Positions 36,443 to 60,461 of a DNA stretch of 64,000 bases are shown here, one piece after another. Positions within the stretch are counted from its first letter, which is position 1; the number at the start of each line of letters is the position of its first letter. The notes beneath the pieces were generated by a model that was not told the DNA's origin, ran no database searches, and saw nothing but the letters and a program-made list of their open reading frames with translations. Both the position numbers and the translations under genes were made by a program. Source of the stretch: Hyaloraphidium curvatum (taxonomy: Eukaryota > Monoblepharomycota > Hyaloraphidiomycetes > Hyaloraphidiales > Hyaloraphidiaceae); assembly GCA_025558095.1 (NCBI GenBank), contig JAIVFI010000015.1:558001-622000 (forward strand), given 5' to 3'.

Positions 36443-37066
36443 GGTAACGTGCCGGCGCTCGCAGTTGCCAGGAGGCTGCACCACCGGGCCGTCAAGATCG
36501 CCCTGGAGGACCTGCTTTCTCGGTGCGCGACGGGCTCTGAGGTGCCGGATCCGTCCACGGAAGATCCCTACGTCCAGCTGCACTGGACCCTGTGCGCAAC
36601 CTACACGAACCAGCTGCGCTTCCTCTCGAACGGCCAGGGGTTGATAGTCGCCGCCCTCCCGCTTCTCGCGGTGTGCGGTATCGTCAACGCCGCCGTAGGC
36701 CGCTGCGTCCCGGCCTGGATAGCCCTCATCTTCTGCTACTTCGCAGTCTGGTTCGCCGTGCCCACGGCCATGGTCGCCGTCTGGAACCGCAACATCGTCT
36801 CGGTCGCGGAGCTGTACCGCAACGCGCAGGAGAGGCTGGTGCTCCTCGAGCCCGAGTCGGCATCTCCCGCGGCGCAGGAGCGGCACGGGAGGCGTTGGGC
36901 CTGCTGAGGGAGGGCATCGCCGCGCACAGGGGAACGTTCATGGGGTTGACGGTCCGGCTGGGAACCGTGAGAACTTACCTGGCCACGCTCTTCAAGGCTG
37001 CTGGGCCTGTGGACGCTGGCGGGGGGCCGGGATCGCGATCGCGGTCGACTCGGTCTGCCCGGGGTA
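36443..37066 (+). pseudogene. Truncated and frameshifted membrane-family copy C
   Basis: Near-identical at DNA level to 40462..41085 of copy D, only a few percent different, from PALAVARRLHHRAVKI to the C-terminal signature. The 5' half is missing. At least three small deletions break the frame: one base near 36890, two bases near 36993 and two bases near 37018, each judged against copy D. Homology begins abruptly at about 36443. This is a recent, dead 3' fragment of copy D or of a common ancestor. Confidence 0.85.
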
Positions 37067-37106
37067 GATTACATATGCGAACGTGACAGAGTGCAACAAG
37101 GCAAGA

Positions 37107-38552
37107 TCACGCCGCCACCGCAAGCGCTGCCATTGCAACCAGTGTCCCCATCCATCCGGAAGCCCCCGAGGCTCCGACCCGCACCGCGCCCGACTCGGGC
37201 CTCGCATCCGTCGGCGGGGGGGGCTCCCCCGGGCACGACTCCACACGTCCCGTCGCGAAGACCAGTTCCGCCCTATCACACCACGCGGCCCTCTGGGTGC
37301 CATTGGTCCGCTCCGGGCACAGAAAGCCGGCGACGACGCGATTGTTTACCAGGGCCGCCGGCGCGGGCTCGCTGGGGGCCAGCTCTGTGCATTCACCGTC
37401 GACGAACCACGAGCATGCCGGGCCCGAGAAAAACGCCAGATCCGGGACGAAGGTACCGTTCCGCGGGCCGGCGCAGGCGACCCGCGGGCCGCGCCCGCCG
37501 TCCGCCGGGGTCAGCTCGGCGGCGAGGAAGTAGTGCCCCTGGTCATCGGGGTGGTAGGAGCGCAGGCACCGCGTGGTGCCTGCCTCCGGTGGGCATCCGG
37601 GCTGCTCGCAGAGGGGTTCGGGCGGGAGGGTGTCGTTGAGCGCCAGGGCGAGCGCGGCGGGGCACCACGGGAAGGTCGATGCCATGCCGTTGCAGGCGAC
37701 GTTGTTCGGAAAGCCTTTCACAGCGAGGCTGTAGTCGGGGCCGGGGAAGAGATGCGTGCATCCTTGGTCGCAAAAGTAGGCGCAGGAAAGCTCGGTTCGG
37801 AGCGGAAGCCCGTTCGGATTCGAGGGGAAGCCCGTTGCGCACTGGCCGTCCGTTTGGTTCCCGAAGCCGATGCGGCGAACCGATATGTACAGCCCCGGTA
37901 AAGGGCCGTCGCAGGTGCGCATGCATGTCCAGTCGCCGGTCCAGGGCGTGTTGTTGGCGACCAGGTGGGACAGGTCGGAGCAGCTGGCCGATTCCGGGAC
38001 CGGCGTGCCGAACAGCGACGAGTGCGCCTCGACGCACCACGGCACAAACGAGGTGATGTTGGTGATGTTCTTCTCCCCGTCCGGCCCAATGCATTCGGTC
38101 GGCCCGGCCGACTGCGGTGCCGGGCCGATGGCGTCGAGGCACCACGGGTCCGAGAAGAGCGTGCAAGTGCCGTTCCCCCGGCAGGCAACCGACGCGCTGC
38201 CGTACCACCCCGCCGCGCGTGCGTCCTCGACAGCGACGAACGCGCAGCCCAGGGACGGGATGCGCACGCAGCTGCCGCGCCGCTCGCACTCGGCCGGCCC
38301 CGGCGCGAAATCCCGACCGCGCACCCGCCGGCCGACGCCGACCACCCGGTCGCCGCCCTCGCACGCGCCGACGCAGCGCACCCGCGACCCGCCGTAGCCG
38401 CTGTCAGACCAGCGGCCGTAGACGCAGTTGATGAGGCCCGTGGCGGGGTCGAGCCATTCCTGCTGGTTGAGGCCGCTGTGCGAGGCCCGGGAGGCGGGCA
38501 CAAGGACGAGGAGGGCGACTGCAGAGAGGTAGCAGACAGTGAGTGTTCGCAT
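37107..38552 (-). CDS. Cys-rich secreted protein, probable GPI-anchored surface protein
   Basis: Single exon, 481 aa. An N-terminal signal peptide (LSAVALLVLVPASRA) is followed by more than 35 cysteines, several N-glycosylation sequons (NGT, NIT, NQT, NDT) and many Trp/Pro. At the C-terminus a Gly/Ser spacer is followed by a terminal hydrophobic run (WMGTLVAMAALAVAA) with nothing after it, the layout of a GPI-attachment signal. Internal segments of the type WC..A..L / PWC..A..S suggest an ancient Cys-rich repeat. No known domain is recognised. It lies between dead copy C and relic genes. Confidence 0.7.
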   Translation of the reverse strand: MRTLTVCYLSAVALLVLVPASRASHSGLNQQEWLDPATGLINCVYGRWSDSGYGGSRVRCVGACEGGDRVVGVGRRVRGRDFAPGPAECERRGSCVRIPSLGCAFVAVEDARAAGWYGSASVACRGNGTCTLFSDPWCLDAIGPAPQSAGPTECIGPDGEKNITNITSFVPWCVEAHSSLFGTPVPESASCSDLSHLVANNTPWTGDWTCMRTCDGPLPGLYISVRRIGFGNQTDGQCATGFPSNPNGLPLRTELSCAYFCDQGCTHLFPGPDYSLAVKGFPNNVACNGMASTFPWCPAALALALNDTLPPEPLCEQPGCPPEAGTTRCLRSYHPDDQGHYFLAAELTPADGGRGPRVACAGPRNGTFVPDLAFFSGPACSWFVDGECTELAPSEPAPAALVNNRVVAGFLCPERTNGTQRAAWCDRAELVFATGRVESCPGEPPPPTDARPESGAVRVGASGASGWMGTLVAMAALAVAA

Positions 38553-38743
38553 AGGTGTGTTTGGTTCAGTTTTGTCGTGTGACTCAGTGAGGGGCGGAGC
38601 AGCGGCAAGTTCGGGAAGGCGGGGGGGGGTTTCTCATTCAATCCGCGGATCCGGGAGACAGTCGCTTGGACACGGACCCAACCAGAATCAATCGTGCATC
38701 TGCCCGGCATCCGCCGAGGCTCGTCTCGGGCCCCCCTCGGTTC

Positions 38744-38845
38744 TGGGGCTTGCATGGCCCTCGCCGCCCGCGCAGCCGTGGTGACCCGCTGCGGCGAGTG
38801 CGACGCCAACGCGCACTGCGAGTACAGCGTGGTGTTCGGCGAGCA
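38744..38845 (+). pseudogene. Fragment of the EGF/PAN secreted gene at 43148
   Basis: About 100 bp nearly identical to 43176..43278, encoding the end of the signal peptide and RCGECDANAHCEYSVVFGE. Similarity stops abruptly at 38845, where unrelated sequence follows. The start codon region is altered. A broken duplicate. Confidence 0.8.
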
Positions 38846-39612: not shown

Positions 39613-41085
39613 ATGGCAGTGCTATTCACGGACCGCGAGTGGCTCGCCCTGTTCCCGGCCCAACCTCCGCCGGACCCGTCTCTCTTCCGCGGGCCACTTC
39701 CCGACCCGGCAAGGGAGCTCCGCGCCGCGGACGCGCTTTCCTTCGACGCGCTCGTCTCCAATCTGCCGGACGCGCTCCTGCGAGCGCAGGTGATCGCCGC
39801 GCGCCGCCTGGAGCCGCTGGCCGCCCGTTTCATTGTGCGCTACTCGGCGCTCGGCGCACTGACAATGGCGCTCTACGGCGCCGCAGTGGCCTTCAACGAC
39901 GGGCGGTACGGAGGGCCGCAGGTCGCCACGGGCTTCGCGACCATCGCCGCGCCTTTCGCCTTCCTCATTGGGACCATCGCGGCTACCCGCTTCCGCGAAG
40001 GCAGCTGGGCCCGCATCTACCGCCCCGTCGGCGAGCTCAAGAAGGGCGAGGTTCCGGCTCCCGCGGAAGACTTTAGCGCCCACCCTTTCGCGGGCATTGC
40101 CCGCTGGACCCAGCTGGTCTCCTTGCCGCCCAAGGCGGACGCCAAGGACGAGGAGAACGGCGGCGCGTCCGCGCCGACGGACAAGCTGACGGCGCACGAC
40201 CCGGACGACCCGGATTGCCCCTGCGGCCTTGCCACATGCCTCGGAGACGCGCCGAGATCGGCCGGCAGGCAGCGCGTGGTCCAGGTCGTCGTCCAGCTTG
40301 TGGAAGAGCTGGTGCAATTCGTTTTGACCGTGTGGACGCCGCTCGTGGTGCTCGGGGCGTCCGTGTGGACCTCGCCGTGGTCTGCACCGATCGCGGCGCT
40401 GTACTGCTGCGTGCTCGTGGTGCACGCCCCCGCGACCACCTTAGGAACGACGCAGACCAATTTGCCGGCGCTCGCGGTTGCCAGGAGGCTCCACCACCGG
40501 GCCGTGAAGATCGCCCTGGAGGACCTGCTTTCTCGGTGCGCGACTGGTTCCGAGGTGCCGGATCCGTCCACGGAAGAGCGCTACGTCCAGCTCCACTGGA
40601 CGTTGTGCGCGACTTACACGAACCATCTGCACTTCCTCTCGAACGGCCAGGGGTTGATTGTCACCGCGCTCCCGCTTCTCGCAGTGTGCGGGATCGTCAA
40701 CGCCGCCGTAGGCCGCTGCGTCCCGGCCTGGATAGCCCTCATCTTCTGCTACTTCGCAGTCTGGTTCGCCGTGCCCACGGCCATGGTCGCCGTCTGGAAC
40801 CGCAACATCGTCTCGGTCGCGGAGCTGTACCGCAACGCGCAGGAGAGGCTGGTGCTCCTCGAGCCCGAGTCGGCATCTCCCGCGGCGCTGGAGCGCCACG
40901 GGAGGCTGTTGGGCCTGCTGAGGGAGGGCATCGCCGCGCGCAGGGGAACGTTCATGGGGTTGACGGTCGGGCTGGGGACCGTGAGGACGTACCTGGCCAC
41001 GCTCTTCACGGTGCTGCTGGGCCTGTGGACGCTGCTGCGGGGGGCCGGGATCGCGATCACGGTCGACTCGGTCTGCCCGGGATAG
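39613..41085 (+). CDS. Seven-hydrophobic-segment membrane protein, family copy D (intact)
   Basis: Single exon, 490 aa; ATG 39613 chosen because the LFP motif (REWLALFPAQPPPDPSLF) follows directly and sequence upstream belongs to the SDR relic. Hydrophobic segments are at about 73-94, 105-125, 237-252, 258-275, 348-367, 371-394 and 457-478. The loop between segments 2 and 3 carries HPFAGIARWTQL (157-168) and CPCGLATCLGDAP (202-214), which may form a metal-binding or disulphide knot. A basic helical loop (RRLHHRAVKIALEDLL) follows segment 4. The C-terminus ends GLWTLLRGAGIAITVDSVC. It shares these features with copies B and F. Copy C is its dead partial duplicate. Function unknown; receptor-like topology is inferred. 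Confidence 0.75.
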   Translation: MAVLFTDREWLALFPAQPPPDPSLFRGPLPDPARELRAADALSFDALVSNLPDALLRAQVIAARRLEPLAARFIVRYSALGALTMALYGAAVAFNDGRYGGPQVATGFATIAAPFAFLIGTIAATRFREGSWARIYRPVGELKKGEVPAPAEDFSAHPFAGIARWTQLVSLPPKADAKDEENGGASAPTDKLTAHDPDDPDCPCGLATCLGDAPRSAGRQRVVQVVVQLVEELVQFVLTVWTPLVVLGASVWTSPWSAPIAALYCCVLVVHAPATTLGTTQTNLPALAVARRLHHRAVKIALEDLLSRCATGSEVPDPSTEERYVQLHWTLCATYTNHLHFLSNGQGLIVTALPLLAVCGIVNAAVGRCVPAWIALIFCYFAVWFAVPTAMVAVWNRNIVSVAELYRNAQERLVLLEPESASPAALERHGRLLGLLREGIAARRGTFMGLTVGLGTVRTYLATLFTVLLGLWTLLRGAGIAITVDSVCPG

Positions 41086-41311
41086 ATAGCCCGACAGCAC
41101 ATGCTATGCACACGAATGTAACGCAGATTGCACGAAGGGACAACCACGACGCCGCTGCAAGGCCGGCCACAATTACTAGCGCCACTATCCGTGCTGTGGA
41201 ATTCAATCAGTCAATGGAGGATTTGACTTCGTTGATTGCACCAGCCTTGGAATGACTGACTGACAGACAGTGCGCAACGCGTGAATGGCACCGTGGGGTT
41301 CGTGCGCTCAA

Positions 41312-42844
41312 ATGGAACCTTGGGTGCGGAGCACTCTCCTCTGCGCCGTGCTATCGGTCGCTTTGGCGGGCGGGGCGGCGGGGGCGCCGTGCACTCTTGA
41401 CGGAGGGTGTGTGGCGCTGCCAGCGCATCTGCCGCCGCTGGCCTTCTTAGTGCCTACCGTCCCTGCTTCGATGCAGCCGGTTCATCGAATCATGCACCGA
41501 CGTCCGGCTGGACGGCTCTGTCGTGCGCGCGTCGTGCATGAACTGCGCCGGCAGAGCATCGTCCGCGGACTTCGACCTGCGGGCCGCGGTCGGCAACACG
41601 GACGGGCAGCTCTTCTTTCCGGGCACAGGATTGACCTCGTCGTGTGTTCTACGCTCTCTTTCGGTCGCGGGCGGCCGGGCGATGCTGGCGGCATCCTGCT
41701 CGGACCACAAAGGGACGCCGCGGGAAACGAGCCTGGATCTCAACTACGTGCTCAACAACGGCTGCGGAGTCCTCAAAGTATTTCGCTCGGATTGCACCGT
41801 CGAGGGCTCTATTGCGTCCTCTAATCCCGGAGCCACTTGCAGCTTGGATGACAAGTTGGTCGTGCTCTCCCCTTTGAAGGCGGACGAACTGAACCCGAGC
41901 CGTTCCGCTCACAGCGGGTTCTCGCAGTCGTGCTCGGCCATGAGGCTGGACGGTTTTGTTCTCCGCGCGTCATGCATCGCCTGCGACGGCACAACGTCTT
42001 CCACGAACATCGACCTGAGCAGAATCATCACCAACAGCTTTGGCACGCTCTCTTTTCCGGGGCAAGATTTTGCCCTGACGTGCAGCTCTGTTTCGCTAGT
42101 TTCGTCCAACGGTCCGTCCCTGCCCTCCGCCACCAGGTGATAGTGCTGATTTCGCGACGATCGGCCTCCGCAGGTGGACCAAACAAGACTCTCAGCGCAT
42201 CCTGCCGCGACGGCAAAGTCAGCACGCTGTACGCAACCCAGATGGATCTGGACTACATCCTGGCTAATCGGTGTGGACGCCTGGCCGCCGCCGGATCGGG
42301 TTGTACGTTCGTCGGCTCTTCGTCACTGGCTTCACCGCCCGCCGCGCAGCCTGTCGCACAACCTTCCGCCCAGCCCGTCGCGCAACCCTCCGCGCAGCCA
42401 GTCGCGCAACCCTCCGCCGCCGCTCCTACGATTTCCCAACCGGTCTCGGGCCTATCCATGGGCGCGATCGCCGGGATCGCGGTCGGCGCTTCGGTTGGCG
42501 CAGCCGCCCTTGGCGCCGGCCTGTTTGTTCTGCTGCGTCGGCCCGCTCACGGCTCACACGTCCTCGAGGAGCCCGAGGCGGTAGCATTGCCTCCTCACGA
42601 TGCCTCCCCGGACTTTGGGTCCAACGGGGACGCCCCGGCCCGCCCTTCTCCAAACGAAGACGTCGCGGCCCGTCCCCCGCCCAACGAGGACGCCGCGACC
42701 TGCGTGATCTGCATGGACCGGCCGAAGAACACCGTGGTCCGGCCCTGCAAGCACCTGGCCATGTGCGCAGAATGCGCCGCAACGGTCGAGAGCTGCCCGC
42801 TGTGCCGCGGAAGGGTGGCCAGCGTGGAGACGCTCTTCGTGTGA
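41312..42844 (+). CDS. Cyanovirin-N double domain / transmembrane / RING receptor-like protein
   Basis: Exons 41312..41406, 41477..42111 and 42174..42844; introns of 70 and 62 nt, both needed to keep frame; 466 aa. Signal peptide (residues 1-24). CVNH domain 1 spans about 37-133 (SCTDVRLDGSVVRASC, TSLDLNYVLNNGCGVL). CVNH domain 2 spans about 178-279 (GFSQSCSAMRLDGFVLRASC, TNIDLSRIITNSFGTLSF, MDLDYILANRCGRL). A Gln-Pro-Val-Ala stalk of three 8-residue repeats (300-323) leads to one membrane helix (338-364), a Pro/Asp-rich cytosolic linker with two PNEDxAA repeats, and a C-terminal C3HC4 RING (420-454: C-x2-C-x11-C-x-H-x3-C-x2-C-x6-C-x2-C). CVNH domains bind mannose-rich glycans; a RING suggests E3 ligase signalling inside the cell. 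Confidence 0.82.
42344..42418. repeat. 24-bp coding tandem repeat
   Basis: Three near-identical 24-bp units encode the AQPVAQPS repeats of the extracellular stalk of the CVNH-RING protein. Confidence 0.9.
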
Positions 42845-43147
42845 CCGCGGTGCGTTTGGGGTGGAGTAGAAGGAAAAGGTGCGTGTGAAGGACCTTTCTA
42901 TCCATGCATAATCCACTGTGCAATGCCATGGCATGCATGCCCGCCATGCGGCGTGTCCGTGCGCTCCAGGCGGTTCGTTAGTCAGCCAGCGCGGAACGTC
43001 CGGCGGGAGACGCGACCAAATGCCTGAAACGAAAGTCAGTCAGTCAGGGCCAGGCACTCCCGATACTACGCAAGAAGGTGCGCGGCTGCTTCGCCGGGGC
43101 TCGCGCAGGCGGGATGCGCTGAATGCTGTCCGCCGTCGTCGCGGCAG
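42845..43147. other. Intergenic, no gene seen
   Basis: 3' flank of the CVNH-RING gene and promoter side of the EGF/PAN gene. A short GTCA tetranucleotide run at about 43034 is the only feature. Confidence 0.4.
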
Positions 43148-43855
43148 ATGGTCCTCTGGTCGGCGCTGCTCCTCGGGGCGTGCCTGGCCCTCGCGGCCCG
43201 CGCAGCCGCGGCGAAGCGCTGCGGCGAGTGCGACGCCAACGCGCACTGCGAGTACAGCGTGGTTTTCGGCGAGCACTGCGTGTGCGACCGGGGGTTCAGC
43301 GGGTCGGGCGCGGCGGGCGGCTGCCGCGAGGACGCGGCCGCGCAGCTGTACGACCTCTGCCACGCCGGCGGGCGGTGCTGCGCGGACCCGCTGGGCAGCA
43401 CGGCCGTGACGTCGCGGCGGGACTGCGAGGCCGCCTGCGACGCGCACCCGGGGTGCAAGTACGTCGCCTTCGACGCCTCCGGCGGCGGTTGCCACCTCTT
43501 CGGCTCGTGCTCGGCCCGCACCCACGGCGGCCCCTGGGAGCTGCGCGCACGCAACGGGTCGGCGTCGTGCCCCGCCAGCGCGGGCTGCAGGGCCGACCTG
43601 CGGATCACCGCCACCCACGCCTCCGTGCGCAGGGGAAACTCAGTCACCCTCCGCGCCACCGTGCGGCTCGCCGACACCAACAAGCCGGCCCGCAACATGC
43701 GCATCACCTTCGCCGTGCGCGGCACTGCGGCGGGGAGCGCAACGACCGACCGCCAGGGGGTGGCGACGGTCAGGTTCAGGTACCCGGCGGGCTTTCCGAA
43801 GGGGCGGCAGAGCTACACGGCCGCCCACGCCGGGTCGTCGAGCTACAACGCGTAG
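43148..43855 (+). CDS. Secreted EGF-like / PAN-like / bacterial Ig-like protein
   Basis: Single exon, 235 aa. A signal peptide (WSALLLGACLALAARAAA) is followed by an EGF-like knot (RCGECDANAHCEYSVVFGEHC). Then comes a PAN/apple-like module (DLCHAGGRCCAD, DCEAACDAHPGCKYVAFDA, GGCHLFGSC). The C-terminal beta-rich domain (SVTLRATVRLADTNKPARNM with ATTDRQGVATVRFRYPA) has the pattern of bacterial Ig-like (Big) folds. The Big-like C-terminus stops shortly after its last strand. A partial copy of its 5' end lies at 38744. Likely a secreted adhesive protein; the module calls rest on Cys spacing and short motifs. Confidence 0.65.
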   Translation: MVLWSALLLGACLALAARAAAAKRCGECDANAHCEYSVVFGEHCVCDRGFSGSGAAGGCREDAAAQLYDLCHAGGRCCADPLGSTAVTSRRDCEAACDAHPGCKYVAFDASGGGCHLFGSCSARTHGGPWELRARNGSASCPASAGCRADLRITATHASVRRGNSVTLRATVRLADTNKPARNMRITFAVRGTAAGSATTDRQGVATVRFRYPAGFPKGRQSYTAAHAGSSSYNA

Positions 43856-58323: not shown

Positions 58324-59294
58324 CGCTTGTTCGGGGGAAGGACGGCGCGGGCCTGTTTCACGTGGGGGAATGGCCTCGCAGGAACGATGTCTTTTTGGGG
58401 GCGCGGTGCCGCTGTGTCCGTGGGGATCGTTCGCGGAAGGCGCTGTGGAGGGCGAGCCTGGCCTACGGCGGGCGGGATGACGCGGGGGATCTTCCGCCTC
58501 CCTAACTGTGCGCAGAAATTGGGGTGTTCCGTGTCCAAACCTGCGCGCAACAATGCTGGAAGAGCCCGTCGAGGAATGCTGCAGCGGATGTTGCCTGCGG
58601 AGGCGCACAATGAGAGGTGTCCTTCAAGCTTGCGGGCGGCAATTGTTCGGGGCGACGATTAAAATGCCGTTCCTTTCGGAAGGAACCATAGAGCTTTGTC
58701 TTGGAAACTCTCTGTAGTAAGTTGACTTCGAGTCCGATTGCGGGGTCCTGTTTCGCGCGATTGTCACGTCATCGGCAAGGCAGACGGCTTCGTTTCCTCG
58801 CATACCAGATTCATATGAGAGAGCGCGCGCTTGGAGGATATGGCTCGGCGTATCTGTCGCACGAGCGACGTGCCTTGCCTCGGCGGGAGGACAGCAGTCC
58901 GCAGCATTTCTTGGGGGCGTCCTCGATTGATTCGACGATTGCGCCTCCGACGCCAACGCATTCCCGCTCCTGCTCCCGCTGCTCTTGGTTTCGATGTCTT
59001 GCGGCTTGTCACCAAAATCTGGGCCAAGTTCGCCGAAATCTGGGCCAGGTTCGCCAACTTGCTGGGCACGCAGGCAGGTTTCGGCTTCGCTGCGCCGCGC
59101 CAACTAGGTTTTCCCTAATCCCACTCCCCGCAGCCTAATTTTAGACATAATTTGAGCTCAAATGTGGAGCAGCTGAGCCGATCAGTTTGTGCGTGAGGGG
59201 CCGGGGAACAGGTCTGAGCGCCAGGGAGTGTCGAGTGACCCTTCCCTTGTCGACGCGTCCCCCACTATCCCATGCCCCCACGCCCGCCATCCCC
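58324..59294. other. Gap with no supported gene
   Basis: About 970 bp between two divergently oriented genes. A 21-bp near-perfect tandem duplication (AATCTGGGCCAAGTTCGCCG-type) lies at about 59019..59060. A minus-strand frame at 58624..59103 lacks coding character. Nothing else recognised. Confidence 0.45.
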
Positions 59295-60461
59295 ATGGCG
59301 CAACGCGGCGGTACGCGGCTGGGCGCGGTGCTGCTCCTCGCGCTCTGCGTCTTCGTGTACTCGCGCCGCCCGCCGCCGGCGGACCCGCGCGCGGCGTGCC
59401 CCGGCCTGATGCCCGCGCCCGACGTCGTCCGCGGCGTGCGCGCCGAGCTGCTCGTCGCGATGAGGGTCGCACTCGCCGGCATCCGGAAGGCCGTGCTGGT
59501 GAAGCTGCCGATGCAGGCGAACAAGGGCGACTCGGCCATCGGCGCCGGGGAGCTCGAGGTCCTGCGGCTGCTGGGAATCAACCTGGTGCACGCCGGCATC
59601 GAGGAGGTCGACGACGACGTCGAGGCCGCGAAAATCAATTCCGTCCTGTCGAACGACTCGTCGTCGGCCGTGCTGTACCACGGCGGCGGGAACCTCGGGG
59701 ATGTGTGGCCGCGGCCAAACAGGATGCGGACCAACCTCATGTGGCGCCTCAACGGCGCCCGGCGGTCGGTGCTGCTGCCGCAGACGATCCACTACACCTC
59801 CCCCGAAAGCGTCAAAGACGCCGCGGTGCTCTTCGACTCCTTCTCGGACCTGACCCTCATGGGGCGCGACGCGCCCTCCTTCTCCTTCCTCCAAAACAAC
59901 TTTGCCGCCCGCCACCGGATCGTGCTCTCCCCCGACTCGGCGTTTGCCCTGGGCCCGCTGGACAGGACGCACTTTGCCGCCGTCCCCGAGCTCGATTTCC
60001 TGTACTTCATCCGGACGGACAAGGAGGCCGTGATCGGCCCCAACATGACCACGCGCCCCGAGGACCTCCACCCGGGGCGCAAGGTCGAGGTCAGCGACTG
60101 GCTCAAGTTCGGGGAGGACGAGGCCAAGCTCGTCACCGACCCCGCGGCGGCGGTGCGCAAACGGACCGCGCTCGGGCTGCAGTACCTGGCCCGCGCAAAG
60201 GTCGTGGTGACGGACCGCCTGCACGGGCACATCCTGTGCCTGCTCTTGGACCTGCCGCACGTGCTGCTGGACAACAGCTACGCCAAGGTGATGCGGTACC
60301 ATTCCATGTTCACGCTGAGGGCGGACAACGTGCGGACGGCGGGGAGCGTGGAGGAGGCGGCGAAGATGGCCGAGGACATGCTGAAGCGGGATTATGCGGC
60401 GGAACGGAAGAAATATGAGGGGAGCGGGGGGTGCAGGGCGGAATGGAGGGCGGGGGGGTAG
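59295..60461 (+). CDS. Polysaccharide pyruvyl transferase family protein
   Basis: Single exon, 388 aa from ATG 59295. The short basic N-terminus and hydrophobic stretch (LGAVLLLALCVFVYS) form a type II signal anchor, placing the enzyme in the secretory lumen. Family motifs: KGDSAIGAGELEVL, YHGGGNLGDVWP, SVLLPQTIHY, a typical DxxxMGRDxxS region (LTLMGRDAPSFSF), SPDSAFALGP, and VVTDRLHGHILCLLL. These enzymes add pyruvate ketals from phosphoenolpyruvate to sugars; in fungi a Golgi homologue (Pvg1 type) pyruvylates surface glycans. The length is normal and no residue seems lost. The last 20 residues are low-complexity. Confidence 0.9.
   Translation: MAQRGGTRLGAVLLLALCVFVYSRRPPPADPRAACPGLMPAPDVVRGVRAELLVAMRVALAGIRKAVLVKLPMQANKGDSAIGAGELEVLRLLGINLVHAGIEEVDDDVEAAKINSVLSNDSSSAVLYHGGGNLGDVWPRPNRMRTNLMWRLNGARRSVLLPQTIHYTSPESVKDAAVLFDSFSDLTLMGRDAPSFSFLQNNFAARHRIVLSPDSAFALGPLDRTHFAAVPELDFLYFIRTDKEAVIGPNMTTRPEDLHPGRKVEVSDWLKFGEDEAKLVTDPAAAVRKRTALGLQYLARAKVVVTDRLHGHILCLLLDLPHVLLDNSYAKVMRYHSMFTLRADNVRTAGSVEEAAKMAEDMLKRDYAAERKKYEGSGGCRAEWRAGG

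Follow-up and report, generated by a model that had tools for sequence, protein, structure and literature searches.

A gene of Hyaloraphidium curvatum combining tandem CVNH domains, a predicted membrane helix and a C-terminal RING finger

CVNH proteins are known mainly as soluble lectins. Among membrane RING ligases that carry a sensor on the lumenal or extracellular side, those described so far have mainly PA-type ectodomains. A locus of Hyaloraphidium curvatum, contained in a window of 64,000 nucleotides (the whole stretch of DNA analyzed, positions 558,001 to 622,000 of contig JAIVFI010000015.1), raises the question whether a lectin and a RING finger may be joined within a single receptor. 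A preliminary, sequence-only reading had described there a type I protein of an architecture without known precedent, and had suggested that it signals directly from glycans to ubiquitin. The features of the locus are reported in Table 1.

Joining of the three exons (41312-41406, 41477-42111 and 42174-42844), separated by GT-AG introns of 70 and 62 nt, results in a stop-free translation of 466 aa. In agreement with the sequence-only reading, a signal peptide, two CVNH domains, one transmembrane helix and a C-terminal C3HC4 RING were recognized in this product by translation, Pfam and structure matches, the hydrophobic segments being located at residues 9-27 (signal) and about 340-364 (helix, followed by RR). 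Both proposed introns are supported by their GT-AG borders and by the open frame; removal of the second one is needed to obtain a complete CVNH2, with the CVNH profile match spanning the exon junction, and a matching intron is found in a paralogue. Exon 1 is supported by C27, which is the eighth cysteine of domain 1. The fusion is independent of splice prediction, because the final third of CVNH2 is encoded together with stalk, helix and RING by exon 3 alone, in one open frame; for the same reason, splicing of the CVNH and RING parts into separate genes, which would have contradicted the preliminary description, is largely excluded. The order signal peptide-CVNH-CVNH-stalk-helix-RING can be firmly assigned, at the sequence level, to one gene.

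Table 1. Sequence features of the CVNH-RING locus, in window coordinates
Feature	Position	Strand	Basis and remarks
TGACTGACTGACAGA element	41253..41267	+	45-59 nt upstream of the CVNH-RING start codon; inverted partner 41203-41213
Exon 1	41312..41406	+	start codon, signal peptide at about residues 1-25, C27; translation, hydrophobic run, eight-Cys pattern
Intron 1	41407..41476	+	GT-AG, 70 nt; removal required to keep the frame; paralogue introns 70, 60, 53 nt
CVNH domain 1, residues 33-138	41478..41795	+	Pfam CVNH; genome scan E 3.7e-12; PDB 2jzj 1e-14
CVNH domain 2, residues 179-243 (its first two thirds, on exon 2)	41916..42111	+	Pfam, genome scan, structure matches
Intron 2, within CVNH2	42112..42173	+	GT-AG, 62 nt; CVNH profile unbroken across the junction; corresponding intron in paralogue
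CVNH domain 2, last third, to residue 280, start of exon 3	42174..42283	+	translation, Pfam
Proline-rich stalk, three PVAQPSAQ units	42335..42448	+	24-bp tandem repeat 42338-42418
Single predicted TM helix, residues 340-364, then RR	42461..42535	+	hydrophobicity; G at 340, 344, 348, 352
C3HC4 RING, residues 418-460	42695..42823	+	Pfam PF13920 1.1e-13; cIAP1 RING 1.4e-10
C-terminal RING tail RGRVASVETLFV	42806..42841	+	linchpin R455; aromatic F465 at +11 from last Cys

Profile searches of the two parts, suggested as a check by the sequence-only reading, recognized both. For CVNH (PF08881), an E-value of 3.1e-31 was obtained (108.6 bits, against a curated cut-off of 24.5), the best stretch covering residues 180-280, and a separate genome scan detected the domain, above the curated cut-off, at 41481-41777 (E 3.7e-12) and at 41919-42122. 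Among solved structures, domain 1 matched Ceratopteris CVNH (2jzj, 1e-14 on residues 34-136) and domain 2 a CV-N tandem dimer (1e-14 on residues 179-286). In an AlphaFold model of CVNH1, of low confidence (pLDDT 50), the top Foldseek matches were CV-N and CrCVNH, with a TM of about 0.33; a low-confidence model of exon 3 alone (pLDDT 46) was left unused.

The four CVNH domains of the host genome, two from this gene and two from the paralogue, were aligned to CV-N and CrCVNH. Six cyanobacterial CVNHs, retrieved with a Cyanothece CVNH query, were used as alignment rows only, and one of them (L052) was dropped since it aligned only in part. The cysteines of the classical pairs C8-C22 and C58-C73 (CV-N numbering) are all present in both domains of the CVNH-RING protein, as they are throughout the four. 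Each of the four also carries four added cysteines, one before the domain, one after it and two at the positions of T25 and D95, which are sugar contacts of site A in CV-N; the latter two cysteines are probably joined by a disulfide that spans site A. The eight-cysteine CVNH is thereby a separate variant of a lectin fold that has been studied in depth.

The binding of mannose-rich glycans, claimed in the sequence-only reading, is only partly backed by the alignment. At site B, both domains of the CVNH-RING protein retain N42 and S/T57. Neither has E41, E56, R76 or Q78, and one of them also lacks D44; in the host domains E41 is replaced by G or T, and R76 by H or G. Dimannose binding by CV-N is abolished by mutation of N42, strongly weakened by that of T57 and weakened by E41A/G (PMC8091458). 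CrCVNH, listed as a mannose-binding lectin of CVN fold (PMC6359319), is itself devoid, according to the alignment, of E41, D44, E56, R76 and Q78, so that binding of glycan by the CVNH-RING ectodomain appears plausible. With T25 and D95 both replaced by cysteine, mannose binding is only putative; these replacements, together with the losses at E41, E56, R76 and Q78, indicate that binding could be weak or directed to another ligand.

The ectodomain is followed by a stalk where, as proposed, an eight-residue unit is repeated three times: a 24 bp tandem repeat, present in 3.4 copies, encodes the PVAQPSAQ units, and the region resembles the Pfam PT disordered repeat at 1.2e-4, below the curated cut-off. 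Runs of glycine at every fourth position favour helix pairing. Four such successive glycines occur in the transmembrane segment, an arrangement only moderately unlikely by chance, as it is reached in 1.35% of shuffles of the helix residues. The mature ectodomain contains 16 cysteines, in two sets of eight, and all seven cysteines of the tail are RING ligands, as expected for a chain oxidized outside and binding zinc inside. A GPI anchor and a reversed topology were considered and rejected, given the helix followed by RR and by a RING with all its zinc ligands, and the signal peptide and 16 cysteines upstream.

The RING was detected by zf-C3HC4_3 (PF13920) at residues 418-460, with an E-value of 1.1e-13 and 51.2 bits against a cut-off of 27, its ligands being C420, C423, C435, H437, C441, C444, C451 and C454; the matching solved structures are those of cIAP1 (9e-10 on residues 416-461), cIAP2, ML-IAP and XIAP. 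R455 directly follows the last ligand and F465, at +11, is one residue from the end of the chain (TLFV). Among 30 inspected loci of the genome, 11 RINGs of this family, the present one included, were chosen by tail length (ending 12-13 residues after the last Cys); all 11 carry an Arg at +1 and an aromatic residue (F, Y or W) at +11. Features shared with the C-terminal RINGs of cIAP/XIAP/ML-IAP and MDM2 are the C3HC4 spacing with H-x3-C, the linchpin Arg, found likewise in cIAP1, and the aromatic residue at the very C-terminus, which has the same +11 place in cIAP1 and MDM2; the CVNH-RING protein differs from them in being membrane-anchored and in lacking a BIR or p53-binding part. The linchpin Arg primes ubiquitin (PMC8897509). 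In RINGs of the RNF4/ML-IAP type, the C-terminal aromatic residue stabilizes the closed E2~Ub as well as the dimer (PMC5702613); such a residue acts both in dimer stability and in E2~Ub activation (PMC5702613, PMC8897509). Judged by ligands, linchpin Arg and +11 aromatic residue, the RING groups with the dimeric RINGs of cIAP/MDM2 type. Only two lysines are present in the cytosolic tail, both within the RING, which makes a simple self-ubiquitylation of the tail not obvious and hints at substrates being ubiquitylated in trans; the hint is weak, because lysine is rare throughout the protein (8 of 466 residues).

A whole-genome scan of the 31.9-Mb assembly revealed CVNH in just two places, the CVNH-RING gene and a gene on another contig, C1 (locus L005, 3015-4071). 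The latter, for which a splice model of our own with three GT-AG introns (70, 60 and 53 nt) was built, encodes 290 aa. Its product starts with a signal peptide, contains two CVNH domains (2.6e-36) with the same 8+8 cysteine pattern, and ends eight residues past the last cysteine, without helix and without RING; its 53-nt intron lies within CVNH2, at the place corresponding to intron 2 of the CVNH-RING gene. The genome thus holds a soluble version and a membrane-RING version of the same ectodomain. As a secreted tandem eight-cysteine CVNH, the paralogue is a candidate new form of cyanovirin-type lectin. Among the 30 RING loci inspected, only one other (L020, C7:618192-618392, minus strand) showed a clear helix before the RING. 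Its RING is the closest to that of CVNH-RING (48% identity); the protein has a coiled-coil-like N-terminus in place of the ectodomain, and no CVNH. The sole match of CVNH2 in viral contigs, located within a phage tail-gene stretch, was rejected as a short chance similarity around FPGQDFA.

The reading preferred here, because all parts fit it, is that of a type I lectin-E3 with paired RINGs that would act once glycans have clustered the receptor, a proposal to which we would give an even chance. The protein would be a single-pass membrane protein, located at the cell surface or in endosomes or phagosomes, with two cysteine-rich CVNH domains binding glycans, probably multivalently, a stalk keeping them away from the membrane, and a helix able to pair with that of another copy. 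The cytosolic RING, of the dimeric cIAP/MDM2 type, would bind E2-ubiquitin, and the C-terminal aromatic residue of the partner would activate transfer. A multivalent glycan, present for example on a prey cell, on a microbe or on a bound glycoprotein, would cluster the receptors and bring the RINGs into pairs. Ubiquitin would then be attached to membrane proteins nearby or to the receptor complex that has been captured, leading to endocytosis or signalling. Direct glycan-to-ubiquitin signalling is a fair hypothesis, which the predicted anatomy, with a dimeric-type RING, a helix with glycine at every fourth position and up to four potential glycan sites, would allow. That glycan clustering outside pairs and activates the RINGs inside, so that sugar recognition would be turned into ubiquitylation by one protein, with no kinase or adaptor, is suggested tentatively, the odds being somewhat against it.

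The same parts could also form an intracellular quality-control or sorting E3 of the ER, Golgi or endosomes, where the CVNH domains would hold high-mannose glycoproteins and the RING would mark membrane-bound clients, as a one-chain analogue of OS9/XTP3-HRD1. Man-alpha-1,2-Man ends are typical of early secretory glycans. These ends are favoured by CV-N (PMC4926178), the ER lectins OS9 and XTP3 bring their clients to the membrane E3 HRD1 (PMC4021871), and the PA-TM-RING protein RNF13 is named as an endosomal ligase in a title cited in PMC4021871. However, the C-terminus (TLFV) carries no retention motif, a single helix provides no retrotranslocation channel, and the paralogue sharing the ectodomain type looks secreted; an intracellular quality-control or sorting ligase is considered unlikely. 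Rather improbable is a CVNH part which no longer binds sugars and acts as a disulfide-stabilized scaffold for a protein ligand, within a protein-sensing E3 receptor like RNF43/ZNRF3: the cysteines at T25 and D95 in all four domains and the loss of several site-B contacts would agree with it, but the equivalents of N42, S/T57, N93 and S7 are kept in four domains out of four, and the mannose-binding CrCVNH shows comparable losses. A gene-model error or a non-functional fusion, with a secreted CVNH gene and a RING gene joined by chance, is very improbable, because, although the locus lies in a rearranged stretch, where the end of the upstream gene is duplicated at 36450-37069 with 94% identity, the frame is uninterrupted through exon 3, with no stop between the parts, the RING ligands and tail are intact, and the GC content by codon position (GC1 0.62, GC2 0.58, GC3 0.756) fits coding DNA of the host genome.

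A lectin-E3 receptor as preferred here resembles the PA-TM-RING ligases (GRAIL/RNF128, RNF13, RNF167, Goliath) in its signal peptide, lumenal or extracellular recognition domain, one helix and cytosolic RING. That family is defined by a PA domain, a transmembrane segment and a RING-H2 (PMC4021871), whereas the CVNH-RING protein contains tandem CVNH in place of PA, a C3HC4 with cIAP/MDM2 tail in place of RING-H2, and stalk repeats; Pfam detected no PA domain, and its best RING model is C3HC4_3, not RING-H2. The likeness is best read, on domain content, as one of layout and not of descent. With the CVNH lectins (cyanovirin-N, CrCVNH, fungal CVNH, CVNH-LysM type III) the protein shares the profile, C8-C22, C58-C73, N42 and S/T57, and it differs from them in being membrane-anchored and RING-fused, and in the four extra cysteines per domain, including those at the T25 and D95 positions. 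A fusion of CVNH and RING finger was not found among 5.39 million open-access papers, where only one unrelated secretome paper came up, and nothing fitting the broader combination of lectin and RING was found there in title or abstract; the domain order is upheld, with no counterpart found in that set of papers. New here are the predicted secreted-only CVNH paralogue, the eight-Cys CVNH, the putative cIAP/MDM2-type RING and the helix with glycine at every fourth position.

The element found upstream of the start codon is repeated elsewhere in the genome but is rare: TGACTGACTGAC gives only 95 matches, many of them overlapping, in the 31.9 Mb, against 33 for a reversed-pattern control. It is also present 80-125 nt upstream of the C1 CVNH gene (L005, 2893-2928), and is likewise carried by the downstream neighbour of the CVNH-RING gene (43036-43046). 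The motif occupies 17 distinct loci; at 14 of them an ATG frame of 100 aa or more starts 40-140 nt away, as compared to 44% of control positions. Both CVNH genes, the downstream neighbour and several LRR, kinase-like, MIB/HERC2-like or secreted genes, whose families were judged by eye, have the TGACTGAC repeat element 45-130 nt before their start codons. From this distribution, it is probably a promoter element common to a limited set of genes. Co-regulation of the two CVNH genes is one possibility; alternatively, both may simply have inherited one promoter.

The genes flanking CVNH-RING are involved in a local duplication. The 3' end of the upstream membrane-protein gene is present at 36450-37069 and 40463-41087 (94% identical) and a piece of the downstream gene, in the same order, at 38745-38845 and 43175-43275 (92%), an unrelated minus-strand secreted ORF (37107-38633) occupying the place of CVNH-RING in the duplicated copy. 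The ORF directly downstream (43150-43855) is secreted and cysteine-rich (CGECDANAHCEYSVVFGEHCVC...), and has no Pfam match at 0.001. The Polysaccharide pyruvyl transferase domain is better known from bacteria and yeasts; one (PF04230, 1.1e-21) is found in the window at 59151-60458.

If active, the CVNH-RING protein would lead from the recognition of glycans to ubiquitylation within one molecule, and would illustrate a way in which glycosylated prey or partners may be sorted, or responded to, by a free-living protist. It would also provide a natural template for degrading surface proteins under the direction of glycans.
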